This document shows positions 6,896-62,838 of a stretch of 64,000 bases of DNA, one piece after another. Every line of letters starts with the position of its first letter. Position 1 is the stretch's first letter. Source of the DNA: Candidatus Enterovibrio altilux (lineage in GTDB: Bacteria > Pseudomonadota > Gammaproteobacteria > Enterobacterales > Vibrionaceae). The DNA is taken from assembly GCF_002381345.1 (NCBI RefSeq), contig NZ_CP020660.1:310001-374000 (forward strand). The letters are read 5' to 3'. The translations under genes and the position numbers were made by a program. The notes beneath the pieces are model-generated. The model did no database searches and was not told the origin of the DNA. It worked only from the letters and a program-made list of their open reading frames with translations.

Positions 6896-8076
6896 CTAAT
6901 GCGAGTTCAAAAAAATGTCACCATGGCTGACTCCTAGATTGCTCGAATGATCTCGTTCCTTGAAAGTTGCCTCTTTTTTTGGTGGGGTGAGTGGAACTCG
7001 AGCATTTAACACGAACGGTTTAGTAACAATGCCTGGTATCGTAAGCAATATCGGCCAATACTTCATTGATTTTTCAGCGGATCTGTTTGAATAAGTTAGG
7101 TAGTACTTCACCGTCAGTCATATTTGCTGCATTTAACTCAGTAGCAATGATTACATGCGATTTATATCTCGCGCTAAATATAATTTGCACCAAACTCGCC
7201 GTTTTCTCTTAATGCCATGTTTTTTTTACTTTCCATTCGCTTTCACCGTAGACTTTGATCCCAGTAGAATCAATAGCTAAATGCTGGATGATTCCTTTAT
7301 TCTCGTCTTGAACGTAGCGTTAACCGTTTGGATCCAGTTGTAAATGCATGAATAGTGAAGCCATGACAATGACAGCTTAGTAAGTTTAAAAACAGAATTA
7401 ATGAATCCCTGCAGACCTCTCAATAGCATTTAAAATACGCATTTAACCATAAAGGCCGTCGTACTGACTAAGTCGCTAAATAAACGAGATCTCCCATGAT
7501 TAATTACAGTTTGATGATACTGCTTCCAGTTAGTTGTTTTATAACAAAAATTGTTTATAAAGCTGAACATCAAAGTGAGCCTAACTATTTAGAATATTAA
7601 TTAAAAATTTAGCTCCCTTATTTTTTAAAAAATAAACCGGTAACCATCAATGTTCCCTAACAGAGACAGCAATGGTTCAAATAAAAGAATTATATGGTGG
7701 GACATTGAGAAGCCTGCCAGGATTAATTAATTCTGTTTTCAAACTTACTCAACTACCATTGCATGCCATCATTATTCATGCATTCATAGGCAGACTAAAA
7801 CTGTTCACATCGTGTTCAATATGCAGATTAAAATTAAAAAACCACCCAGCACTTCACCATTCATTTTACGAGACTAAAAGTTTACGGTCAAAGCGAATGA
7901 TAAGTAAAAAAGCATAGCACTAATGAAAAACATCAAAGCTGGCGTAAGTTATATGGTTTCAAGAAGCACTGGAAAACAAAGTATGATTATGATAAAATAT
8001 TCATCATTAGAGACGGCAATGCTACGAATTAAAAAACTACACTGAGGAGCATTGTCATTCCTAAGAAGCTTTGTTT
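6896..8076. mobile_element. IS5-family composite, reverse body fused to a chimeric forward piece
   Basis: A reverse-orientation copy with an internal deletion near its left end runs to about 7640. There its terminal repeat (AATAAACC) is joined to the forward tail beginning GGTAACCATCAATG, the junction shared with other composite copies. At about 7711, at the sequence CATTGAG, which occurs twice in the element, the tail switches to the middle of a forward transposase gene. That gene continues, heavily decayed, to about 8076. The interval 8077-8434 is AT-rich and holds no gene I can see. Confidence 0.75.
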
Positions 8077-9264: not shown

Positions 9265-10125
9265 AAACTTTGTTTCTTACTTTTAGTTTAAATAGCAAAT
9301 CCCAACATGATTCACTGTTAGATAATTGTTTTCATGTTAGACATGCCTAGTCCTGTCAGTTTATTTAACGCTTTGATCATGCCGTAGGTTTCCCCTAATC
9401 TGAGCAGTGCACTCCCTTAGGTTCGATATCTCTTCCAGTAATTTTTGGATTCGAACCATTCCTATTTTTTGCTAAAAAACATTTACGGTTACCACACCTC
9501 GCTTTACAATGCTGATTTAAATCGTATCGCTTTTAATAAAAAGTCACTAAATTACACGGATAATTTACTTCCTAAAAAGTGGCTCCTTTTCTTTGTGAAA
9601 TGAGTGGGACCGTTCGTTTAATACGAGTAATTTCATAATATTATCTGATGTCGTAAGCACCAACGGTTAATATTTTATTAATTTTTTCTACGGGCCTATT
9701 TGAGCAAATTAAGTAGCACTTCACCTTCAGTCACATTTAATGCATCTCACTCAACAGCAATAATTTCATGCATATTTATATCTTCCGCTAAATGTAACTT
9801 GTCTCAAAATCGGCGATTTCCATCAGTACCACGCTTTTTTACTTTCTATTTTTATTCACCGTAGACTTTTAAACCCGTAGAATCAATAGCTAAGTGCTAG
9901 ATAGTGAGGACATGACGATAGTAGTTAAAGAAATATGAAAAAGCAGAATTAATTAATCCTTGCATACCTTCCAATAGCATTGAAAATACGCATTTAACCA
10001 TGAGGGCCGTCGAAATGGCTCAGTCGCTAAATAAACTGACATGAGTAGGTATGTCTAACACAAGAGTTATCGTCTAATAATTAACCCTGTTTCAATTTAC
10101 TACCTGCATTAAAATTAAAAAAGCC
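9265..10125 (-). mobile_element. IS5-family composite remnant with internal deletion
   Basis: A reverse-orientation copy runs from an eroded left end (ACTTTGTTTCTTAC, about 9265) to the region AGTCGCTAAATAAAC. It then jumps at AATAAACTGAC into the forward tail, which ends at AAAAAAGCC (10125). Both outer ends are therefore the transposase-3' end of the element in inverted orientation, as in the composite family, but the 5' body is missing. The in-frame codon before the YREK motif reads TGT. Not functional. Confidence 0.7.
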
Positions 10126-10605: not shown

Positions 10606-11638
10606 TTATAGTATCTGTACTAATGCGGGTCCAAATCATAAATTCCGACATGATTCACTATTACATGCCTCATTTTCAAAACGTGACTCTTTTTAGGTTA
10701 TATGAATGGCACCACTCGTTTAATACGAACGGTTGCGTAACATTGTCTGGTGTCGAAAGTACTATCGCTGATGTTTCATTAATTTTTAACGGTTTTTTCA
10801 AGCACGTTAGGTAGCACTTCACCATCAATCACATTTAATTCATTTAACTCGGCAACAATAATTTCATGCGTATTTATATCTACCGCTAAATATCACGTCC
10901 GCCAAACTCGCCGTTTTCCAGTAACACCATGCTTTTTACTTACCATTCTCCTTCACCGCAAACTTTGAGTCCCGTAGCATCAATAGCTAAGCGCTGAATA
11001 CTTCCTTTCTTCTTCGTCCTGAACGTAACGTTAATCATTTTGACTCGTTTGCTAATGCATGAATAGTGAGAGCATGACAATGACAGTTGAACAAGTTTGA
11101 AAACAGAATTAATCCTTTTTTGGAACTCTCCATGACATTAAAAATACGCATTTCACCATAAGGACCGTCGTAATGGCTAAGTCATTGAATAGACGAAGTC
11201 TCTCATAATTATCTTGCTGAGTTTCATTCCACAGCTGAGTAGCTTTTTCATCCATTCAGAATGTTAGTAAACTACGATTGATTAAAGCTTCACTATATTC
11301 TTTCCAGTTAATTGTTTTGTAGCAAACATTATTCATGACCTGAATATTTAAGTGAGCCTAACTGTTTAGAGTATTGATTGAAAATTTAGTTCTCTTATCT
11401 AGGAAATCAAGCCCTTTACCATAAACGTTCCCTAATAGAAACAGCAATGATTCGAGTAAAAAATTTACTGGGAGGGACATTGAGCCTAAGGGACAACACA
11501 ACTCAGATTAGTAAAATCTACGCCATGATAAAAGCGTTAAATAAGCTGATAAAACTAGGTATCCATAACACGAAAGCGGTTGTCTAATAATGAATCATGT
11601 TGAAATTTGTTATTTAAACTTATATTAGAGAACATAGG
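10606..11638 (-). mobile_element. IS5-family composite element with inverted extra tail
   Basis: A reverse-orientation body, with a deletion in its left end region, runs to about 11413. There the internal terminal repeat (AGGAAATCAAGCCC) is joined to the forward tail TTTACCATAAACG. The tail ends at about 11638 (eroded TTAGAGAACATAGG). The tail carries the composite-specific variant ACAACTCAGATTAGTA. Transposase fragments are broken by many stops. Confidence 0.75.
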
Positions 11639-13267: not shown

Positions 13268-14208
13268 AAAAAAGTACTTTTTTAGTGGCGCGAGTGAAAC
13301 TCTCGTTTCATACGAATGGCTTCGTAACATTGTCTGATGTCGTAAACACCATTGCTTTACGTCTTGTTGATTTTTCGGCAGGTCAGTTTGAGGAAATTAG
13401 GTAGCACCTTGTCGCCAGTCACATTTAATGCAATTAATTCAGCAGAAATGATCTCATACGTATTTACATCTACCGCTACATGTAATTTGCACCAAACTCA
13501 ACGTTTTCCGTCGAAGGCTATGTTTTTTACTTTCAATCTACCTTTACCGTAAATTTTAACCTCGTAGAGTCAATAGCTCAGTTCTGGATAATTTCTTTAG
13601 TCTTCATCTTGCACATGACGTTCACCATTTTGATTCGCTTACTAATGCATGAATAATAAGGATACGGCAAGGATAGTTGAGCAAATTTAAGATAAAATTA
13701 GTGAATTTTGCAGACCTCTCAATTATATTGCAAATACGCGTTTGACCATAAGAGCCATCGTAATGTTACGTTACTAAATAAACGAGGTTTCTCACGATTA
13801 TCCTGCTTAGTTTGACTCCAGAGCTAAATCGCTTCTTCATCAATCCAGAATGTTAGCAAGCCACGATTAATTAAAGCTTGATTATACTGCTTTCAGTTAG
13901 TTCTTTTATAATAAAAACTATTCATAGACCTGAATGTTTAGAGTGTGATTGACAATTTAGTCCCTTATTGAAAAAATAAAGTCAGTTATCATAAACATTC
14001 CTAGCAAAGACAACAATGGTTCGAGTCAAAAAACTACTGGTAGGGACATTGAACCCAAGGAATCATACAACTCAGATTAGTGAAATCAACGCCATCATAA
14101 AATCATTAAATAAGCTGACAAAACTAAGTGTGCCGAAAATGAAAGCAATTATTTCATAGTGAATCATGTGAAGATTTACTATCTGAACTAAAAGTAGAAA
14201 ACAAAACC
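13268..14208 (-). mobile_element. IS5-family composite element with inverted extra tail, left-truncated
   Basis: The reverse body begins inside the element (about 13268, at the region encoding the C-terminal third) and runs to the internal junction AATAAAGTC/AGTTATCATAAACA (about 13982). The forward tail follows with the shared variants AGACAACAATGG and ACAACTCAGATTAGTG and ends at GAAAACAAAACC (14208). No intact transposase. Confidence 0.75.
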
Positions 14209-16192: not shown

Positions 16193-16949
16193 GGCTTTGT
16201 TTCTCAAAAGAGAAACTCAATTATCAAGCTATGCTCTAAATAATTAGGCTCACTTAAATATTGAAATCTATGAGTAGTATAATCAAGCTTTACTCAATCA
16301 TGCCTCACTAGCATTCTGGATTGATGAAAAATCATTCAGTTACGGAATTACACTAAGCAAGGTAATCATAGAAGTTTCTGTTTATTTAGTGGCTTAGCTA
16401 TTACGACTACTCACATAGTCAAAAACCTATTCTCAATGCTTTTAAAAGTCTGCAAGTATTCCTTAATTCTGTTTTCAACTTTACTCAACTGCCGCTGTCA
16501 TACCATCATTATTTATGCATTAGTAGGCGAGCCCAAGCAGTTCATATCGCGTGCAAAACGAAGACTAAAGGAATTCTCCAGCACTTAACCATTAATTTCA
16601 CGGGACTCCAAGTCTACGGTGAAAGCGCATGAAAAGTGAAAAAGCATGACACTGATGGAAAACAACAAATCTGGTGCAAGTTACACTGAGTGATAACTAT
16701 AAATACGCATGAAATTATGGCTGTTACGTTAAGTGCACCAAATGTGACTGACGCTGAAGTACTATCTAACTTGTTAACACAGACCTACCGAAGAATCAAT
16801 GTAACATCAGACGATGGAGCTGACGACACCAGACAATATTACGAAACCATTCGTATTAAACGAGCGGTTCCACTCATCCTACCAAGAAGAGGGCAACTTT
16901 TGGAGAGCTAAGCCATCCACGTCATTTAGTGGTCAGTTATCACAAAGGC
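16193..16949 (+). mobile_element. IS5-family remnant, 3' part missing
   Basis: A forward copy from the terminal repeat GGCTTTGTTTCTC (about 16193) through the transposase body to GTCAGTTATCAC, where it abuts the left end of the next, reverse-oriented element. One fairly long stretch (16690-16911) still reads MITINTHEIMAVTLSAPN and on to DDTRQYYETIRIKRAV. The second catalytic Asp region and the YREK region are not in one frame, so it is inactive. Confidence 0.8.
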
Positions 16950-18223
16950 TTGGTTTCCTAATTCGAGTGCAGATAGCAAACTCCAACATTATTAATGATT
17001 AAACAACCATTTTTGTTTTAGGCATACTTAGCTCAGTCAACTTATTTAACGCTGCTATCATGACATAAATTTCGCTAATTTAAGCATTGTGATCTCTTCA
17101 GCTTAATTCCCCCTCTAAGTAATTTTTGACTCAAAGCATTGTTATTTTTTGACAGGGAAAGTTTATGATTATCATATCTCATTTTTCAATATTGGTTGGA
17201 ATCGTATAACTTCTGATAACTGACCGCTACATGACGAGATAACTTCGTTACCCAAAAATTATTCCTCTTCTTGGTAGAATGAGTGGAATCGCTCGTTTAA
17301 TACGAATGGTTTCGTAACATTGTCTGGTGTCGTCAGCTCCATCGTCTGATGTTACATTGATTCTTCGGTGGGTCTGTGTTAACAAGTTAGATAGTACTTC
17401 AGCGTCAGTCACATTTGGTGCACTTAACGTAACAGCCATAATTTCATGCGTATTTATAGTTATCACTCAGTGTAACTTGCGCCAGACTCGTTGTTTTCCA
17501 TCAGTGCCATGCTTTTTCACTTTTCATGCGCCTTCACCGTAGACTTGGAGCCCCGTGAAATTAATGATTAAGTGCTGGATGGTTCCTTTAGTCTTCGTTT
17601 TACACGCAATATTAACTGTATGGGCTCGCCTGCTCATACGTGAATAGTAAGGGCATAACAACGGCAGTTGAATAAATTTGAAAGCAGAATTAATGCATCC
17701 TCTCAAACCTCTCAATGACATTAAAAATACGCATTTAACTAGGAGAGCCATCGTAATGGCTAAGTCACTAAACGAAACAAAGTCTCCCATGGTTACTATG
17801 TTTCGTTTAGTGACTTAGCTGAATAGTTTCTTCATCAATCCAGAATGTCTGTAAATCACAATTGATTAAAACTTGATTATACTGCTTCCAGTTAATTGTT
17901 TTGTAGCGAAGATTGTTCATAATCTTGAGTATTTAAGTGAGCCTAACTGTTTAAAGTGTTAATTAAAAATTTAGTTCCCTTATTTAAGCAGTAAAGCCGG
18001 TTACCATAACCATTCCCTAGCAGAGATAGCAATGATTCAAATCAAACACTACATAGAGGGATATTGAGCCTAAGAAATCACATAATTCAAATTAGTAAAA
18101 ACATCGCCATGATAAAAACATTAAATAGGCTAACAAGACTGGGTATACCTAACGCGAAAGCGATTCTCTAATAGTGAACCATCTGAGGATTTGCTATTAA
18201 AGCTCGGATTAAAAGACAAAACC
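16950..18223 (-). mobile_element. IS5-family composite element, near full length (about 1.27 kb)
   Basis: One of the best-preserved composites. The left terminal repeat GGCTTGGTTTCCTAATTC is at 16950, a complete reverse body runs to the internal terminal repeat GTAAAGCC at about 17992, and a forward tail beginning GGTTACCATAACC runs to the outer end GACAAAACC (18223). The outer ~225 bp on each side are inverted copies of each other. The transposase (for example CVFLMSLRGLRGCINSAFKF, reverse) is split among frames and has the shared TGA near 17195. Confidence 0.85.
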
Positions 18224-19169: not shown

Positions 19170-20386
19170 GGTTTTGTTTTCTAATTTTAGTTCAGAGAGC
19201 CAATTTCAACATAATAAATGATTACACGATCGCTTTTATTTTAGGCATGCCTAACACGGTAATCTTATTTAACGCTTCTGTCATAACGTAAGTTACGCTA
19301 ATCTAATCATTATAATATCTTAAACTCAATCTTCCTCTTAGTAATTTTTTTAATTTGAAACATTGCCGTCTTTGATAGAAAATGCTTATGGTAACTAACT
19401 GTTAAATTATGCGGATGATCTCGTTCCCAAACAGTTGTTCCTTTTTGATGGGATGAATGGAACTGCTCGTCCAATACGAACGGTTTCGCAACAGTATCTG
19501 GTATCGTAAACAATATCGGCTTATATTTCATTAATTTTTCGATATGACTGTTTGAATAAGTTAGATAGTGCTTCACCGTCAGTCACATTTGCTGCACTTA
19601 ACTCAACAGCAATGATTTCATGCGTATTTATATCTCGCACTAAATATAATTTGCACCAAACTCGCCGTTTTTTTATCAGTGCCATGTTTTTTTACTTTCC
19701 AGTCGCTTCCACCGTAGACTTTTAGTCCTGTAGAATCAATAGCTGAATGGTTCCTTTATTTTCTTCTTGAACGTGACGTTAACTGTTTTGGCTTGCTTGC
19801 TAATGCATGAATGGTGAGGGCATGATAACGACAGTTAAGCAAATTTAAAAAAAATTTAATGAACCCTTGTAGGTCTTTCAATGACATTAAAAATACGCAT
19901 TTAACCATAAGAGCCGTTGTAATGACTCAGTCGATAAATAAACGAGATTTTCCATTCAACTTGGCTTAGTTTAATTCCATAACTGCATGATTTTCATCAC
20001 TCCAAAATATTAGTGAGTCACGATTGATTAAAATTTTATTATACTGTTTTTAGTTAATTGTTTTATCGTGAAGCTTGTTCATAGACCTGAATATTTCAGC
20101 TAACCTATCTATTTAGAGTGTTAATTAAACATTTAGTTCCATGATTTTAAAAATAAATCCGATTACCATAAACGTTACTTAGCAGAGACAGCAATGGTTA
20201 AAATCAGGAAACTATTGGGAGCAATATTGAATTTAAGGAATCACAGAACTCAGATTAGTCAAACCGACGCAACGATCAAAGAATTAAATAGACTGACAAA
20301 ATTAAGTATCTTTAACACGAAGGTGAGTGTCTAATAGTGAATCATTTGGGGATTTGCTATCTGAACTAGAATTAAAAAATAAAGCC
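19170..20386 (-). mobile_element. IS5-family composite element (about 1.22 kb)
   Basis: The left outer end GGTTTTGTTTTCTAATTTTAG is at 19170. The reverse body reaches the internal terminal repeat AAATAAATCC at about 20160, followed by the forward tail GATTACCATAAACGTTAC. The tail carries the shared AGCAGAGACAGCAATGG and CAGAACTCAGATTAGTC variants and ends at AAATAAAGCC (20386). The transposase has stops and a deletion across the YREK region. 20387-20733 is AT-rich and shows no gene. Confidence 0.83.
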
Positions 20387-21951: not shown

Positions 21952-23886
21952 ATGAGTATTTTCGATCATTATCATCAACGCTATGAAGGAGCCAAAAATG
22001 AAGAACTTAGCCTTCAAGAGTATTTAAACCTGTGCCGAGGCGACAGCAGTGTTTACGCCAATGCATCGGAACGTTTGTTAATGGCAATAGGAGAGCCCAA
22101 AAGGGTAGATACGGCACTTGAGCCACGTCTGAGCCGGCTTTTTTCTAATCGTATTATTTCACACTACGATACATTTAAAGACTTCTATGGTATGGAAGAA
22201 GCAATCGAGCAAATTATTTCTTACCTCAAGCATGCAGCTCAAGGCCTTGAAGAACGTAAGCAAATTCTCTATTTACTTGGTCCTGTGGGCGGAGGTAAAT
22301 CATCACTGGCAGAAAAGCTCAAAGATTTGATGCAAAATGTGCACATTTACATTCTTGTCGCCAATGGCGAACGCAGTCCTATTAATGACCATCCTTTTTG
22401 TTTATTCGATTCAGCTGAAGATGGCGAATTACTAAAAAGTGACTTCGGCATTCCTCAACGTTACCTTAGTTCTATCATGTCCCCTTGGGCGGCAAAACGT
22501 CTACGCGAGTTTGGCGGAGATATTAGTAAGTTTAGAGTGATGAAAATTAGACCTTCCATCCTTAACCAAATTGCGGTGGCAAAAACAGAACCTGGTGATG
22601 AAAACAACCAAGACATATCGTCTCTGGTTGGTAAAGTCGACATTCGTCAGCTTGAACACTTCGCGCAGGATGATCCAGATGCGTATAGCTATTCAGGGGC
22701 TCTGTGTAAATCCAATCAAGGCTTGATGGAGTTTGTAGAGATGTTCAAAGCACCAATTAAAGTACTGCATCCACTGCTTACAGCCACTCAAGAAGGGAAC
22801 TATAATGGCACTGAAAGCCTCTCAGCATTACCATTTGAAGGCATGATCCTTGCGCACTCAAACGAATCTGAGTGGCAAACATTCCGTAACAATAAAAATA
22901 ACGAGGCCTTCCTAGACCGTGTTTACATCGTAAAAGTACCTTACTGTCTACGTGTATCGGAGGAGATGAAAATTTACAACAAATTACTGCAACATAGTGA
23001 GCTATCATCAGCACCTTGTTCACCAAGTACACTTGATATCCTAGCTCGTTTCAGTATTCTCTCACGATTGAAAGAACCAGACAATTCAAGTATTTTTTCA
23101 AAAATGCGAGTTTATGATGGTGAAACACTAAAAGACACTGATCCAAAAGCCAAATCATATCAAGAATACCGTGACTATGCAGGTGTTGACGAAGGCATGA
23201 ATGGTCTATCTACGCGTTTCGCATTCAAAATACTATCTCGAGTATTCAACTTTGACCACTCTGAAGTCGCTGCCAATCCTGTACACCTATTCTACGTACT
23301 TGAACAGCAAATTGAACGGGAACAGTTTCCACAAGAATTTGCAGAAAAATATATTGAGCATCTCAAAGGGTACTTAATCCCTAAATATGTCGAATTTATT
23401 GGGAAAGAAATTCAAACTGCCTACCTCGAATCCTATTCTGAATATGGTCAAAATATTTTTGATCGTTATGTTATGTATGCAGATTTCTGGATTCAAGATC
23501 AAGAATATAGAGACCCAGATACTGGCCAACTGTTCGACCGCTCTGCATTAAATAGTGAGCTAGAGAAGATTGAAAAGCCTGCAGGTATCAGTAATCCTAA
23601 AGACTTTCGGAATGAAATCGTCAACTTCGTACTCCGGGCTCGTGCTAATAATGAAGGTAAAAATCCTGGTTGGACAAGCTACGAAAAACTTCGCACTGTG
23701 ATCGAAAAAAAAATGTTTTCAAATACAGAAGAATTATTGCCTGTAATTTCCTTCAATACGAAAACTTCTAATGAAGAACAAAAAAAACACGACGACTTCG
23801 TCGCTCGTATGATGGAAAAGGGTTATACTCGAAAGCAAGTACGACTCCTATCTGAATGGTACTTACGCGTACGTAAGTCTTCATAA
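21952..23886 (+). CDS. yeaG: PrkA-type AAA+ serine protein kinase (YeaG)
   Basis: Exactly 644 residues, the length of Escherichia coli YeaG. The N-terminal PrkA AAA+ domain carries the Walker A loop LLGPVGGGKSSLAEKL (residues about 106-121) and YGMEEAIEQIISYLKHAAQG before it. The C-terminal region holds the kinase-like PrkA domain (FHDFVARMMEKGYTRKQVR-like end, read HDDFVARMMEKGYTRKQVR). The family takes part in nutrient-stress and stationary-phase adaptation. The ribosome site AAGGGGC precedes ATG 21952. It is the first gene of a three-gene set with yeaH and ycgB, the standard operon, and all three are intact, which suggests selection keeps this stress module. Confidence 0.93.
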   Translation: MSIFDHYHQRYEGAKNEELSLQEYLNLCRGDSSVYANASERLLMAIGEPKRVDTALEPRLSRLFSNRIISHYDTFKDFYGMEEAIEQIISYLKHAAQGLEERKQILYLLGPVGGGKSSLAEKLKDLMQNVHIYILVANGERSPINDHPFCLFDSAEDGELLKSDFGIPQRYLSSIMSPWAAKRLREFGGDISKFRVMKIRPSILNQIAVAKTEPGDENNQDISSLVGKVDIRQLEHFAQDDPDAYSYSGALCKSNQGLMEFVEMFKAPIKVLHPLLTATQEGNYNGTESLSALPFEGMILAHSNESEWQTFRNNKNNEAFLDRVYIVKVPYCLRVSEEMKIYNKLLQHSELSSAPCSPSTLDILARFSILSRLKEPDNSSIFSKMRVYDGETLKDTDPKAKSYQEYRDYAGVDEGMNGLSTRFAFKILSRVFNFDHSEVAANPVHLFYVLEQQIEREQFPQEFAEKYIEHLKGYLIPKYVEFIGKEIQTAYLESYSEYGQNIFDRYVMYADFWIQDQEYRDPDTGQLFDRSALNSELEKIEKPAGISNPKDFRNEIVNFVLRARANNEGKNPGWTSYEKLRTVIEKKMFSNTEELLPVISFNTKTSNEEQKKHDDFVARMMEKGYTRKQVRLLSEWYLRVRKSS

Positions 23887-23922
23887 ATCGCATAGACGAG
23901 AAGTAACAACATACGGGGGCTT

Positions 23923-25194
23923 ATGACGCATTTTATAGATCGACGGCTCAACGGAAAAAACAAGAGTACGGTAAATCGTCAGCGTTTTTTAAGGCGTCAC
24001 AAAAGGCAAATTAAAAAATCAATTGCTGATGCTGTAACTCAGCGCTCAATAACAGATGTGCATAGTGGTGAAAACATAACTATTCCTTCTCGAGACATCC
24101 GTGAGCCAACATTCCATCAAGGTAAAGGAGGACAGCGAGATGCGGTTCACGCAGGTAATGACCAATTCATTCCAGGAGATTGCATTGAACGTCCATTAGG
24201 ACATGATGACTGTGATCATGCAGGAAAAGGTAAAGCGAGCCAAGATGGCGAAGGACAAGATGATTTTATTTTTCAGATTTCAAAAGACGAATATCTCAAT
24301 TTATTATTCGAAGATTTAGAGTTGCCAAATCTTCGAAAAAATCAAATAACAAACTTGATTGAATATAAAACGTATCGCTCAGGCTTTAAAGCAACAGGTA
24401 TACCTGCCAATATTGCTATTCTTCGCTCGTTAAAAAATTCTCTTGCCAGACGAACAGCAATGTCTGCGGGCAAGCACAAAAAATTCAAAGAACTTGAAAT
24501 AGAGTTGGCAGCGTTAACAGGTACTGAGCCAGCTCAACCTTTAGAAGAAAAGCGCATTCTAGAAGAGATTCAAATACTCAAAGAACAAATAGCAGCAGTA
24601 CCGTTTATAGATACTTTTGATTTTCGATTTAAAAACTATGAAAAACGACCTCAACCTAGCAGTCAAGCAGTGATGTTTTGTTTAATGGATGTCTCTGGTT
24701 CCATGGATCAGGGTACCAAAGATATCGCTAAACGTTTTTATATATTGCTTTATCTGTTCTTAACTCGGACTTACAAAAGCGTAAAAGTTGTTTTTATTAG
24801 ACACCACACTCAAGCTAAGGAAGTCGATGAACACGAGTTTTTTCATTCACAAGAAACAGGTGGCACTATCGTCTCAAGTGCCCTAAGATTAATGGATGAT
24901 GTTATCAAATCACGTTACTCATCCAATGCATGGAATGTGTACGCAGCACAAGCGTCTGATGGTGATAACTGGGCGGACGATTCACCCTGCTGCCGAGAAC
25001 TACTCGAACGCAATTTACTTCCGGTAACACGATATTATTCTTATATTGAAATTACACGCCGTGCGCACCAAACACTGTGGTGTGAATATGAAAACCTTAA
25101 TAAAAAATACGATAATTTTACTATGCAAAACATTCAAACTGTCGACGATATATTCCCAGTTTTCAAAAAATTATTTAAGAAGCAAGTAAGCTAA
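23923..25194 (+). CDS. yeaH: YeaH/YhbH-family von Willebrand-type protein
   Basis: 423 residues, matching YeaH (427 in Escherichia coli). The N-terminus is basic ([24 protein letters not shown]) as in the DUF444 family. The middle is polar and includes [13 protein letters not shown] and [10 protein letters not shown]. The C-terminal half contains a metal-ion-dependent adhesion site Asp-x-Ser-x-Ser in [16 protein letters not shown] (residues about 250-265) and [19 protein letters not shown]. Family members work with the PrkA kinase and SpoVR proteins in stress responses; the precise biochemical role is not known. It lies 36 bp after yeaG with a ribosome site GGGGGC. Confidence 0.92.
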
Positions 25195-25259
25195 TAGGCT
25201 TGCCATTGGATACGCACAAGATATCTTGTGTTAGCTAAAAAAAGCTCAGGAGAACCACT

Positions 25260-26768
25260 ATGGCTGTCACAACAAAGAAAAAACATAAGGTACTCAGTGA
25301 TGGACCAGACTGGACATTTACTCTCCTCGAACAATACCAAACTGAGATACAGCGCGTAGCTGGCTATTACAAGCTAGACACATACGTTAATCAAATCGAA
25401 ATTATTACCTCTGAACAAATGATGGATGCCTACTCTAGCATAGGCATGCCAATTAATTACAGCCATTGGTCTTTTGGTAAAAAATTCATTGAAACAGCTC
25501 GAAATTATAAACACGGTCATATGGGGCTAGCTTATGAAATTGTCATTAATTCGAACCCATGTATTGCATACTTAATGGAAGAAAACACCATTACTATGCA
25601 GGCACTTGTCATAGCGCATGCATGCTATGGTCACAACTCTTTCTTTAAAGGCAACTACCTATTTCAAACTTGGACCGATGCAGGTTCCATCATTGATTAC
25701 CTGCTTTTTGCAAAAAACTATATAAGTGAATGCGAAGAAAAATATGGTGTTGATGAAGTTGAGAAATTACTCGACTCTTGTCACGCGCTAATGAATTACG
25801 GTGTCGACCGTTACAAGCGCCCGCAAAAAATTTCAATGGCAGAAGAAGCAACGCGTCAAAAGACCCGTGAGGATTACCTTCAAACTCAAGTTAACGCACT
25901 ATGGAAAACCATTCCCATCAGCGAACAGAAACGTGAAATGGTACTGGAAAGGTTCCCTTCAGAGCCACAAGAAAACATCCTCTATTTCTTTGAAAAGCAC
26001 GCTCCTCTTTTAGAGCCTTGGCAACGTGAAGTCATACGTATCATCCGTAAAACTAGCCAGTATTTTTACCCACAGAAACAAACGCAAGTGATGAATGAAG
26101 GTTGGGCAACATTCTGGCATTACACCATTTTGAACCATTTATACGATGAAGGCTTGGTATCTGACCGTTTCATAATAGAGTTCTTACATAGCCATACAAA
26201 TGTCGTGGCACAACCTCCTTATAATAGTAGGTACTACTGCGGTATCAACCCGTATGCACTAGGCTTTGCTATGTTTACTGATATTCGACGAATTTGTGAA
26301 AATCCAACCGAAGAAGACAAACACTGGTTTCCAAATATTGCTGGGTCTAACTGGCTCGAAAATATTCATTTTGCGATGAATAACTTTAAAGATGAAAGCT
26401 TCATTAGTCAATTTTTGTCACCCAAAGTTATGCGAGACATGAAATTATTTGCCATCAATGATGATGACCGACAAAATCACATGAAAGTGACAAGCATTCA
26501 TAACGAAGAAGGCTATCAGCAGCTCCGTGAAAAGTTATCCGCGCAGTACAATCTCGCGAATCACGAACCCAACATTCAAATATGGAATGGGGCCCTAAGC
26601 GATAATCGTTCTCTAACTCTTCGTTACGTACCACATAATAGAATTCCGCTGGCTCACTCCCACAACGAAGTGCTTAAACATGTTCATCGATTATGGGGGT
26701 TTAAAGTGGTACTTGAAGAGGAAGTAGCATCTGGTAAAGGGGAAATCATCGCAACATGTCCGAATTAA
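25260..26768 (+). CDS. ycgB: SpoVR-family protein YcgB
   Basis: 502 residues, close to the 510 of Escherichia coli YcgB. Family stretches are DWTFTLLEQYQTEIQRVAGYYKLD at the N-terminus (residues about 14-38), the His-rich segment HACYGHNSFFKGNYLF (residues about 120-135), QVMNEGWATFWHYTILNHLYDEG near 275-300, and NPYALGFAMFTDIRRI near 330. It completes the yeaG-yeaH-ycgB operon, 65 bp after yeaH, behind AGGAG. The molecular function is unknown; the link to stationary-phase adaptation is from the operon partners. 26769-27131 downstream shows no gene or clear terminator. Confidence 0.92.
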   Translation: MAVTTKKKHKVLSDGPDWTFTLLEQYQTEIQRVAGYYKLDTYVNQIEIITSEQMMDAYSSIGMPINYSHWSFGKKFIETARNYKHGHMGLAYEIVINSNPCIAYLMEENTITMQALVIAHACYGHNSFFKGNYLFQTWTDAGSIIDYLLFAKNYISECEEKYGVDEVEKLLDSCHALMNYGVDRYKRPQKISMAEEATRQKTREDYLQTQVNALWKTIPISEQKREMVLERFPSEPQENILYFFEKHAPLLEPWQREVIRIIRKTSQYFYPQKQTQVMNEGWATFWHYTILNHLYDEGLVSDRFIIEFLHSHTNVVAQPPYNSRYYCGINPYALGFAMFTDIRRICENPTEEDKHWFPNIAGSNWLENIHFAMNNFKDESFISQFLSPKVMRDMKLFAINDDDRQNHMKVTSIHNEEGYQQLREKLSAQYNLANHEPNIQIWNGALSDNRSLTLRYVPHNRIPLAHSHNEVLKHVHRLWGFKVVLEEEVASGKGEIIATCPN

Positions 26769-27131: not shown

Positions 27132-28408
27132 GGCTTTATTTCCTAACTCAAGTTCAGATAGCAAATCCCAATATGATTAACGATTAAAGAATTGCTTTTA
27201 TTTTAGGCATACCTAGCCCGGTCAGCTTATTTAACGCTTGTATCATACCGTAAGTTTCGCTAACCTAAACATTATGATCGCTTAAGCTCAATGTCCCTCC
27301 GAGTAATTTTTTGACTCGAAACGTTTCCGTCTCTAATAGGGAACGTTTATAATAACCATACCTCATTTTTCAATGTCTATTTAAATTATATAATTTCTGG
27401 TAACTGATCGCTAAATTACGCGGATGACATCGCTCCCCAAAAGTTACTCCTTTTCTTGGTGGTATGAGTGAAACCGACCGTTTAATACGAACAGTTTCGT
27501 AACATTGTCTGGTATCGCAAGCATCATCGACTAATATTTCATTAATTTTTCGGCGGGTCTGTTTGAGTAAGTTGGTAGCACTTCACCATCAGTCATATTT
27601 GATACACTTAACTTAACAACAATGATTTCATACGCATGTATATTTACCGCTAAATGTAACTTGCACCAAACTCGCTGCTTTCCATCAGTGTCATCCTGTT
27701 TTACTTTCCATTCACTTCTGCCGTAAATTTTGAGTCCTGTAGGCTCAATAACTAGGTGCTGGATGGTTCCTGTATTCTTCGTCTTGAACGTGATGTTAAC
27801 TGTTTGGGCTCGCTTGCTATGCATAAATAGTGAGGGCATTACAACTGCAATTGAACAATCTTAAAAAACAGAATTAGTGAATCCTTGCAGACCTCTCAAT
27901 GACATTGAAAATACGCATTTAATCATGAGGGCCGTTATAATGGCTAAGTCACTAAATAAATGATGTCTCCCATGATTACCCTATGTAGTTTAATTCCATA
28001 GCAAAATGGCTTATTCATTAACCCAGAATGTTAATGAGCCACGATTGACTAAAGCTTGATTATACTGCTTCCAGTTAGTCATTTTATAGCTAAGCTTGTT
28101 CATGGATCTAAATATTTGAGTTATTCTAGCTGTTTAAAGTGTTGATTGAAAATTTAGTTCCATGACTTAAGAAATAAAGCCAATTACCATAAACGGTTCC
28201 TAGCAGAGACAGCAATGGTTGGAGTTAGAAAATTACTGAGAGGGACATTAAGCCGAAGAAATCACATAACTCAGGTTAGCGAAACCTACGCCGTGATAAA
28301 AAACGCCAAATAAGCTGACAGAACGAGGTATTCTTAAAACGAAAACGAGCATCTAATAATTGATTATTTTAGGATTTGCTATCTGAACTCGGATTAGGTA
28401 AAAAAGCC
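27132..28408 (-). mobile_element. IS5-family composite element, best-preserved copy (1,277 bp)
   Basis: The outer left end GGCTTTATTTCCTAACTC is at 27132 and the outer right end GGTAAAAAAGCC finishes at 28408. The reverse body reaches the internal terminal repeat GAAATAAAGCC (ending 28181), then the forward tail AATTACCATAAACGG begins. Bases 27132-27357 and 28182-28408 are inverted copies of each other, both corresponding to the transposase-3' end of the element. The transposase reads in fragments (KTKNTGTIQHLVIEPTGLK) with a TGA before the YREK motif near 27375. No target duplication is visible. It serves as the reference copy for the composite family in this window. Confidence 0.88.
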
Positions 28409-35516: not shown

Positions 35517-36428
35517 GGCTTTATTTTCTAATTTGCGGTGAGATAGCAGATATCAGCATAATGAACGATTAGACGAGTGCTTGCGCTTTAGGCATACTTA
35601 ATCTTGTCAGCTTATATAACGCTTCTATCATGGCGCAGGTTTCGCTAAGCTGGGTATTCTGACCCCTTAGGCTCAGTGTCTCTTCCAGTAGTTTTTTGGC
35701 TCGAGCTATTGCTGTCTTTACTAGGCAACGTTTATGGCAATCCTTTTCCGTTTTTAACGTTAATTAGAATCATATAATTTCTGGTAACTAACTGATAAAT
35801 TACCTGAATGATCTCGTTCCCCAAAATTGCTCCTTCTCTTGGTGGGATGAGTGGAACCATTCGTTTAATACGAACAGTTTCGTAATATTGCATGGTGTCG
35901 TAAGCACCATTGACTGATATTCAATTGATTTTTTAACAGGTCTGTCCGAGCGCGTTAGGTAGGGCTTCACCGTCAGTTACATTTGATGCTTTTAACTCAG
36001 CATCAATGATTTCATGCATATTTATATCTACCTTTAAATGTAACTTACGTCAAATTAAACGCTTACCATTAGGATCATACTTTTTACTTTCCATTCGCCT
36101 TCATCGTAGATTTTGATTCCCGTAAAATCAGTAGCTAAGTGCTAGACAGTGCCTTTATTCTTCATCTTGAGCGTGACATTAATCGTTTTGGTTTATTTAC
36201 TAATGTGTGAGGTCTCTTATAATTACCTTACTGAGTTTGATTCCATAGCTGAGTGATTCTAACATTAATCCGGAATATAAGTCAGCCACGATTGGATTAA
36301 AGCTTGATTATACTGTTTCCAGTTAGTTATTTTGTAACGGAGCTTACTCATAGACCTAAATATTAAAGTAAGCCTAGCTGTTTAGAGGTAGATTAATGAT
36401 TTAGCTCCCTGATTTAGGAAACAAAGCC
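35517..36428 (-). mobile_element. IS5-family remnant ending inside yafS
   Basis: A reverse copy from GGCTTTATTTTCTAATTTG (35517) to the well-preserved terminal repeat TTAGGAAACAAAGCC ending at 36428. An internal deletion near 36208 joins the central region to the 5' region. The right terminal repeat overlaps the last codons of yafS. The codon before the YREK motif reads TAA. Confidence 0.8.
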
Positions 36429-40027: not shown

Positions 40028-40905
40028 AACTTTGTTTCTGAACTCGAGTTCAGATAGTAAAGCCTAACATAATTCACTATTAGACTATTGCTTTAATTTT
40101 AGGTTGCTTTATTCCCTAAATAAGGGAATTATATTTTCAATTTATACTCTAAAAAGCTAGGCTCACTTAAATAGTCAGGTCTATGAACAATCTTCGCCAC
40201 AAAACAACTAACTGGAAGCAGTATAATCAAGCTTTAATCAATCGTAATTCACTAACGTGCTGGATTGATGCAGAAGCTATTTAGCTATAAAATGAAATTA
40301 AGCAGGGTAATCATAGGAGACCTCGTTTATTGAACGACTTAGCTATTATGACGGCCCTGATGGTTAAACACGTATTTTCGATGCCATTGTAATGTCCTCA
40401 CTATTCATGCATTAGCAAATGAGCCCAAATAGTTAACGGTACGTTCAAAACGCAGAATAAAGGAAGCATCCAGTACTTAGCCATTGATTCTACGGAGTTT
40501 ACAGTTTACGGTGAAGAAGAATGGTACTGATGGGGAACAGCAAGTCTGGCGCAAGTTACATTTAGTGGCAGATACAAATATGCATGAAATTATTGCTACT
40601 GAGTTAAGTACATCAAATATTACTGGCGATGAAGTGCTGCCTAACTTACTCAAACAGACTCACCGAGAAATCAATGCAATATTAGCCGATAGTGCTTATG
40701 ACACCAGACAATATCACGAAACCGTTCGTATTAAATGAGTGGCTACACTCATCCCACGAAGAAAAGAAATATTTTTTGAAAACGAGATCATCCGTGTAAT
40801 TTAGCGATCAGCTTATTTAATGCTTTTATTATGGCGTAGGTTTTGCCAATCTGGGCATTATAATACTTTAGATTCCATATTTTTCCGAGTAATTGTTCTA
40901 AACAA
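40028..40905 (+). mobile_element. IS5-family composite remnant, both ends shuffled
   Basis: The left side starts as the inverted tail (CTTTGTTTCTGAACTCGAGT, about 40028), which is shortened by a deletion and joined at TTGCTTTATTCCCTAAATAAGG to a forward element. A good stretch reads NGTDGEQQVWRKLHLVADTN and LTHREINAILADSAYDTRQY-like codons (about 40511-40720). At about 40805, at the sequence TCAGCTTATTTAA, it flips to reverse-oriented end sequence, ending near 40905. Inactive. Confidence 0.7.
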
Positions 40906-50416: not shown

Positions 50417-51048
50417 ATTTTGTCTCTTCATGCGAGTTTAGATAGTAAATCCTAGCATAATTAACTATTAGACGATCACTTGCGTTTTAGGCATACCTAG
50501 TCTTCTTAGCTTATTGAATGCTTTTATCATTATGAAAATTTCAATTTATTTTTTAAATTAGGGAACTAAAGTATTAATCTATGCTCTAAACAGCTAAATT
50601 CACTTGAATGTTCAGGCCTATGGATCAACTTATCTACAAAACAACCAACTAAAAGCAATATAATCAAGATTTAATCAATCGTGGCTCACTAATACTCTAG
50701 ATTAATACAAAAGCCATTTAGCTATGGAATCAAACTAAGCAGGGTAATAATGGGAAACGATGAGTCTGACACAAGTTGCCAGAAATTATACGGTTCCAAT
50801 CAACATTGAAAAGCGGAGTATGATTACCATAAATATTCCCTACCAAAGACGGCAATATTTTAAATCAAAAAACTATTCGAAGGAACATTGAGCCTAAGAG
50901 ATTACAATGCCCAGATTAGCGAAACATACACCATGATAAAAACGTTAAACAAACTGATAAGGCTAGATATCTCTAACATGAAAGCGCTCATCTAACAGTT
51001 CATAATATTAAAGTTTTCTCTCTAAGCTCGAATTAGGAAACACAGCCT
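50417..51048 (+). mobile_element. IS5-family composite remnant with large internal deletion
   Basis: The left side is a shortened inverted tail (TCATGCGAGTTTAGATAG) joined near 50540 to the forward element start (AAATTAGGGAACTAAAGT). The middle of the transposase is deleted (jump near 50757), and the 3' part runs to ATTAGGAAACACAGCC (about 51048). TGA at the shared position near 50810. Confidence 0.72.
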
Positions 51049-61829: not shown

Positions 61830-62838
61830 GACTTTTTTCCTAATTCAAATTCAGATAACAAATTTTTACATAATGCACTCTTAAACAATCGATTTCGTTT
61901 TAGGTATACTTATTCTTGTCATCATATTTAATGCTTTTATCATTGCACCAGTTTAATTAATATAAATTGTATAGTTCCTTAGGCTCGATCTACCTACCAA
62001 TAATTTTTTGACTCGAACCGTTGCTATCTCTGCTGGAGAAAATTTATGATAACCGGCTGTATTGTCTAAATAAGGAAACTAAATTTTTTTAATCAAAACT
62101 CTCAACAGTAAGGCTCACTTAAATATTCAGGTCTATGAACAATCTCCGCAACAAAATAACTAACTAGAAGCAGTATAATCAAGCTTTAATCAATCATGGC
62201 TAGCTAACATTCTGTATTGATGAAAAAGCTATTTAGTTATGGAATCACACTAAACAGAGTAATGATGGAAGACCTAGTTTGTTTAGCGACTGAGCCATTA
62301 CGGTGGTTTTCATGGTTAAATGCACATTTTCACTACCATTGAGATGTCTTAAAGAATTCATTAATTCTATTTTCAAACTTGTTCAACTGTCATTGTCATG
62401 ACCTCATTATTTATGCATTAGCAAACGAGCCAAAACGATTAACGTCACGTTCAAGACTAAGAACAAAGGAGGCATCCAGCACTTAAATATTGATTCTATG
62501 GGGCTCAAGGTTTACGGTGAAGAAAAATGAAAAGTAAAAATGTGGTGCTGATGGGAAATGGCAAGTCTGGCATCAGCTATACAGTTCAAACTTGCATTGA
62601 AAAATGAGGTATAGTTACTATAAATATTCTCTATCAAAAACGACAATGTTTCGAGTTAAAGAACTACTGGTAGGGACATTAAGCTTAAAAAATTATAATG
62701 CTCAAATTAGCAACACTTACTCCATAGTAAAAGCGTTAAATAAGCTGACAGGACTAGGTACATCTAACACAAAAACGATTGTCTAATAGTGAATCATGTT
62801 GGGATCTATTATCTGAACTCACATTAGGAAACAAAGCT
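61830..62838 (+). mobile_element. IS5-family composite element, forward orientation
   Basis: The only clear composite in forward orientation. The inverted tail comes first (CTTTTTTCCTAATTCAAATT, about 61830, to TTTATGATAACC at about 62053), then the internal terminal repeat GGCTGTATTGTCTAAATAAG and the forward transposase. A deletion removes the catalytic middle near 62573; the 3' part runs to ATTAGGAAACAAAGC (62838). TGA at the shared position near 62601. It confirms that the tail travels with the element whatever the orientation. Confidence 0.82.

Follow-up and report, generated by a model that had tools for sequence, protein, structure and literature searches.

Our analysis indicates that, probably, one insertion element inserted in inverted orientation into another, that the two outer 3' ends then mobilized the pair, and that the fused form spread as a unit in the genome of a bacterium that lives as a symbiont in the light organ of an anglerfish. 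The composite consists of a plain element whose 5' repeat continues, directly after its outermost base, into an inverted 226-bp copy of the transposase-3' end.

Within the window (the whole 64-kb stretch of DNA that was analyzed), the composite copy at 27132..28408 (minus strand, as given by the transposase sense) shows an 86% match to positions 1-1277 of the composite consensus of this IS5-family element. This 1277-bp consensus, comprising the 1051-bp element and the 226-bp arm, was built by aligning 22 copies. The element body at 27132..28181 (minus strand) corresponds to the plain element, and its native transposase-3' terminal inverted repeat at 27132..27149 (plus strand, consensus GGCTTTGTTTCCTAATTC) forms the first outer end. 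The extra arm at 28182..28408 (plus strand), recognized by blastn and consensus match as an inverted copy of the transposase-3' end, forms the second. Between them, a remnant of a DDE transposase reading frame is found at 27531..27839 (minus strand; Pfam PF01609, E 2e-4, slightly below the cut-off). The preliminary description had identified 27132-27357 and 28182-28408 as inverted copies of each other, which is borne out by blastn (E 8e-33). It also correctly assigned both arms to the transposase-3' end of an IS903-like element, with 27132-28181 matching the 1051-bp element, and placed the extra arm directly next to the other terminal repeat. This 5' repeat, now internal (28164..28181, minus strand) and carrying the A7 allele that a comparison of composite and plain repeats found common in composites, closes with ...AAATAAAGCC at 28181, and the arm begins at the next base. 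The assumption of two identical 3' ends does not hold, as the pair in this copy is 73.5% identical. A 9-bp target duplication is absent from the flanks (1/9 bases agree). The left flanks of this composite (27132) and of another copy (L096 at 12087) are 72.5% alike over 91 bp and perhaps belong to another repeat. Beside the composite, at 21952-26768, lie three consecutive long open reading frames matching PrkA, DUF444 and SpoVR.

The same junction had been proposed for further positions in the window, and five were detected alongside the one at 28181 (six in total). These belong to two composites with shortened bodies (10668..11637, junction 11413, and 13278..14208, junction 13983), a full composite adjoined on the left by another element piece (16947..18223, junction 17998), a composite keeping both outer ends with flanks that agree at 7/9 positions (19170..20386, junction 20160), all on the minus strand, and a copy in opposite orientation with an internal deletion (61833..62837, plus strand, junction 62055). 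All were found by consensus match, combined with 5'-end detection and, for the copy at 19170, also with flank comparison. A sixth, shortened composite (6927..7709, minus strand, junction at about 7639) was seen by BLAST and consensus match yet failed the 5'-end filter. Shortened forms are indeed present at 9268-10117, 40030-40897 and 50419-51047, but the one at 50.4 kb has the 5' haplotype of the plain element. By consensus match and 5'-end detection, a plain copy with an internal deletion and no arm beyond its 5' end was located at 35517..36428 (minus strand). Two sequence variants had been described as confined to the arms. The first, AGCAGAGACAGCAATGG (arm sites 21, 29 and 36), is frequent in arms but also occurs in native 3' ends: the alleles G/A/G occur in fractions of 0.78/0.90/0.63 of 68 arms versus 0.12/0.28/0.14 of 144 native 3' ends. 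The second, around AACTCAGATTAGT (sites 85-87 and 98), is present in only 0.53-0.62 of the arms.

From its sequence, the element is classified as a decayed, IS903-like insertion sequence of the IS5 family with a length of about 1051 bp, close to ISVa2-like elements of Vibrio. The consensus retains a frame of about 306 codons, interrupted by a single stop, and its translation, with this stop codon kept as X, matches the NCBIfam model NF033579 (IS5 family) with 359.6 bits at a cut-off of 140. A premature stop shared by the composites was considered and dropped; the consensus stop near codon 245 probably reflects decay, in view of the many C/T splits. GGCTTTGTTTCCTAA is common to the 5' ends of 91 plain copies and the 3' ends of 43, which gives the plain element terminal inverted repeats on both sides. 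In the IS903 group of IS5, insertion generates a 9-bp target duplication, and it is the inner part of the IS903 repeat to which the transposase binds. The nearest relatives found are from Vibrio ouci (85% amino acid identity) and V. aestuarianus (84%), followed by plasmid copies annotated as ISVa2 (79%). These Vibrio elements share the transposase family, a length of about 1053 bp, terminal repeats beginning with GGCTTTGTT (in the copies inspected) and a leader of about 78 bp ahead of the transposase. Among 80 related loci scanned, some of which stop at contig ends, none has an inverted 3' end joined to its own 5' end. One Vibrio ouci locus (L172, scaffold_56) contains an element at 1576-2887 with inverted 5'-end copies nearby (2-148 and 2712-2887), which does not correspond to the present fusion. 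Likewise, no match spanning both sides of the junction was obtained among 40 scored of 115 candidates in relative G012 or among all 32 in G017; most matches begin at the arm side, and three G017 contigs inspected terminate inside the element. Two G012 matches starting slightly before the junction look like another IS5-family element in its native context. This element likewise carries G at arm site 21 and A at arm site 29, so these alleles can recur.

The copies were surveyed in a sample of 864 kb, consisting of 40 evenly spaced 20-kb stretches and the window and representing 40% of the 2,143,356-bp genome (largest contig 1,604,691 bp). The element accounts for 28% of the DNA in this sample. 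Its 189 5' ends that reach the terminus comprise 77 composite, 91 plain and 19 other ends, the latter with arm-like sequence at a different offset or truncated, and two at the edges of stretches. Consequently, 77 of the 168 classable 5' ends are not part of plain IS5-family elements; extrapolated by length to the whole genome, the number of composites would be about 190. The published account of the CC26 genome ("Ca. Enterovibrio luxaltus") lists 672 IS5-family transposases, none of them complete, and refers to them as pseudogenes without inverted repeats or truncated (PMC6020299). In the portions of that account available to us, neither the composite forms nor such a fraction of ends outside plain elements is mentioned (PMC6020299). 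The mean divergence from their own consensus amounts to 18% in 56 plain copies and 16% in 58 composites, and at least one copy classed as plain (L099 at 1907) seems to retain the remnant of a nearly deleted arm. Since every copy examined is decayed, the process of fusion and spread is probably over. With plain copies at least as common as composites (91 versus 77), the original pair of ends has not been displaced, contrary to the earlier suggestion that it may have been replaced.

The junction itself is strongly recurrent. Element sequence adjoins 93 of the 189 5' ends (within 20 bp); in 73 of them it starts exactly at inverted body position 226, and in 77 no more than 4 bp away from it. These 77 ends and the composite class have 76 members in common, and the arm stands at offset 0 in 72/77 composites. 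The preliminary description had named varied junction positions as an argument against a single fusion, and they hardly vary: the second commonest position in the sample occurs twice.

We propose that an element B would have taken up an element A, inverted, in its 3' part at ATGGTTACCAT, with 9 bp duplicated and a founder locus of the structure B - GGTTACCAT - A - GGTTACCAT - B as the result. The transposase would then pair the 3' end of A with the 3' end of B, so that A and the last 226 bp of B would move together. This founder locus was found neither in the 864-kb sample, in which three partial matches were inspected, nor among the 40 scored of 688 genome-wide candidates. Such a result would also fit an intramolecular founder, in which a 5' end attacked the 3' region of its own element or of a neighbor; this agrees with our explanation except for the founding step. 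We consider this variant unlikely; nested insertion is simpler, and element ends adjoining element pieces are common (51/317 3' ends, with position 652 as the commonest, four times).

Alleles on both sides of the junction link the composites to each other. In comparison with up to 59 related elements, the composite alleles at body positions 1010, 1013 and 1034 and at arm sites 21, 36, 85, 105 and 155 are derived, where the outgroup includes several elements from one genome and body 1034 is the least clear case (T in 5/58). The A at arm site 29 is the commonest outgroup allele (48/59) and therefore not derived, and body 1020 is mixed among the relatives (T in 35, A in 20). At positions 1013/1020, 55/77 composites have the haplotype TA and 63/91 plain copies have AT. 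Furthermore, position 7 of the internal terminal repeat is changed from G to A in 71 of the 74 informative composites (of 77), compared with 26/55 plain AT copies (p 1e-10) and 17/54 outer ends of arms (p 1e-15); among composites of the TA haplotype it is A in 53/55. Outside repeat positions 7 and 18, decay is not higher in the internal repeat than in the others (0.100, 0.111 and 0.112), which points to a specific shared change instead of general decay. Among plain copies, too, the 5' ends have A7 more often (26/55) than native 3' ends do (17/72, p 0.008); the allele may therefore be older than the fusion, and it does not necessarily disable the 5' end. The strongest composite-specific changes of the body are located near the 5' end, at 994-1034 and 1045 (about 28125-28175 in the window), most of them within the leader that precedes the start of the transposase and within the internal terminal repeat.

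Sequence trees showed the same separation for the regions next to the junction. Arms and native ends require 16 label changes versus 28.0 after shuffling (minimum of 300 shuffles: 23), and composite and plain bodies require 14 at positions 701-1051 versus 34.9 (minimum 27). In contrast, composite and plain copies are not separated by body 227-950 (28 label changes versus 28.1 shuffled) or by their native 3' ends (26 versus 23.6). Unrelated histories of arm and body had been named as evidence against a single fusion; their distances do correlate, although weakly (r 0.079, with 15/5000 permutations as high), and not significantly for body 227-700 (548/5000). The association between the presence of an arm and body alleles is strong near the junction alone, with a mean r2 of 0.143 at 1000-1051 versus 0.012-0.049 in the other bins. 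Such a pattern would be in line with one fusion whose spread to copies already present was due chiefly to recombination or gene conversion and not to transposition as a unit, as would the fact that target duplications are mostly not visible. However, coding sequence under selection should also look alike in both forms, and the arm is no closer to the native end of its own copy (0.696, n=33) than to those of other copies (0.698), so that the two ends are not homogenized. Together with one clear case of unit insertion described below, this makes spread by recombination improbable. Gene conversion between the two ends within a copy was likewise dismissed on this comparison, and linkage decay was abandoned as proof of recombination, because the informative sites are too few. 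We read the lack of separation in body 227-950 and in native 3' ends, and the weak correlation of arm and body, as the outcome of coding constraint on the body while the form spread, combined with a recent common origin and heavy decay afterwards, with exchange between copies being possible.

The ancestral T at arm site 21 is retained in nine composites, including two copies with a shifted junction; six of the remaining seven have haplotype TA and one has CA. Three copies with mostly native arm alleles (L100 at 18643, L092 at 10688 and L099 at 7735) could be early ones. Others carry later arm alleles, which implies that decay or conversion was also involved and that the arm history is no clean series. 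Later alleles tend to nest, with 85C at 0.93 and 86A at 0.95 among arms with 105G, and 105G is associated with 636C in the body (12/13 versus 13/30, Fisher p 0.003, one of 16 tests).

Movement as a unit is most evident for the composite at L124:13076-14329 (C2:223076-224329), which is flanked by TGTATAATA and TGTATAATG (8/9 bp alike) and lies between two genes that we take to be cpoB and nadA. Their homologues are 155, 156 and 161 bp apart in all three relatives searched (G003, G006 and G016), and the gap of 1470 bp found here corresponds to 207 bp without the unit and one copy of the duplication. This composite is an insertion as a unit with a near-perfect 9-bp duplication. It is the one clear case; the other composites probably moved in the same way. 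Composite flanks are mostly distinct; among 78 of them only two pairs are weakly similar. The search for 9-bp target duplications that had been suggested for the composites yielded agreement of at least 7/9 in 2/29 testable copies, including this 8/9 case between genes adjacent in relatives, and nothing visible in the rest; the value for plain copies is 1/40, and copies without both recognizable ends (48/77 composites and 51/91 plain copies) are left out of these counts. Scanning duplication lengths of 5-12 gave a z of 2.0 in composites at 9 alone, and of 1.0 in plain copies at 8 and 9. At the observed level of decay, duplications would be expected to still agree at about six to seven of nine positions, yet 66 of the 69 testable copies of both forms fall below 7/9. 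Most flanks have therefore probably been exchanged by recombination or altered by adjacent deletions, in both forms alike.

A further alternative is that ATGGTTACCAT within the element acts as a hot target, which many copies hit separately in inverted orientation. For most copies, we reject such independent nested insertions, which as a general explanation appear very unlikely. In all 39 full-body composites (39/39), the left flank is not the remainder of element B, i.e. no trace of nesting in place is visible; five of them adjoin other element pieces, at positions 264, 652, 652, 740 and 805. The single recurrent junction and the shared, mostly derived alleles on both of its sides also argue against separate events. 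What such events would explain are two of the 77 copies (L124 at 6979 and L116 at 18567), in which the arm starts 2 bp earlier (ATGGTTACC) and which combine a plain 5' haplotype with native arm alleles; according to the alignment, one has a 1-base deletion. Judging by these features, the two probably represent a separate fusion at the same near-palindromic site, which was thus probably hit at least twice. Altogether, the idea of one founding fusion with later spread as a unit, already put forward in the preliminary description, is supported by junction, alleles, trees, flanks and the unit insertion, with these two copies as probable exceptions. An artefact of short-read assembly is hardly credible: the available part of the CC26 account reports 14x coverage and 250-bp library reads (PMC6020299), but 72 junctions agree, and copies should not be confused in assembly because their end sequences differ by about 28-30%.

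In addition, a mirror-type fusion recurs, connecting a 3' end with another copy that is inverted and begins at body position 652. Four cases were found by strict abutment and five clear ones by junction search in the 864-kb sample, and six among 40 places scored genome-wide (L094:1590, L100:4783, L119:330, L117 at about 7027, C1:1479752 and C2:46270, with L104:12141 from the sample search). With the plain parent, the fused derivative and apparently further, rarer fusions in one genome, shared alleles make it possible to trace how an end-swapped element arose and spread. New transposable units are usually inferred and not seen being made, and the composite is an unusually clear trace of a new mobile unit made from an old one. 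As a tentative reading, somewhat less likely than not, an insertion sequence could have escaped from its own changed 5' repeat (G7A) when it nested in a sibling and took over that sibling's 3' end; the resulting form, with swapped ends but still bearing the transposase, would have become nearly as abundant as its parent, with the arm evolving without coding constraint through successive subfamilies.

In the titles and abstract openings of the open-licence papers found by our searches, no self-fused insertion sequence of this kind was described. The consensus with its frame of about 306 codons sets the element apart from MITEs, which are short and have no transposase gene. Eukaryotic foldback elements have long inverted ends around a core, and it is this shape, and nothing beyond it, that justifies the earlier term foldback-like. 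The ends of the composite, unlike those of foldback elements, are 226 bp of transposase sequence tipped by short terminal repeats of the ordinary kind, and the transposase gene is kept; internal repeats, a foldback trait, are not expected in the arm because it is transposase sequence. In composite transposons such as Tn10, Tn5 and Tn903, the inverted outer ends of two IS copies mobilize the DNA between them, and the outer ends would be used here in a similar way. However, two complete IS copies flanking a segment are not found; one full element is combined with only the last 226 bp of its partner, and there is no cargo gene. The maize double Ds, finally, arises when an element inserts in inverted orientation into another copy of itself and thereby creates new end pairs, as we propose for the composite. 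It differs in host and family, the present case being a bacterial IS5-family element in which one fusion is represented by many copies.
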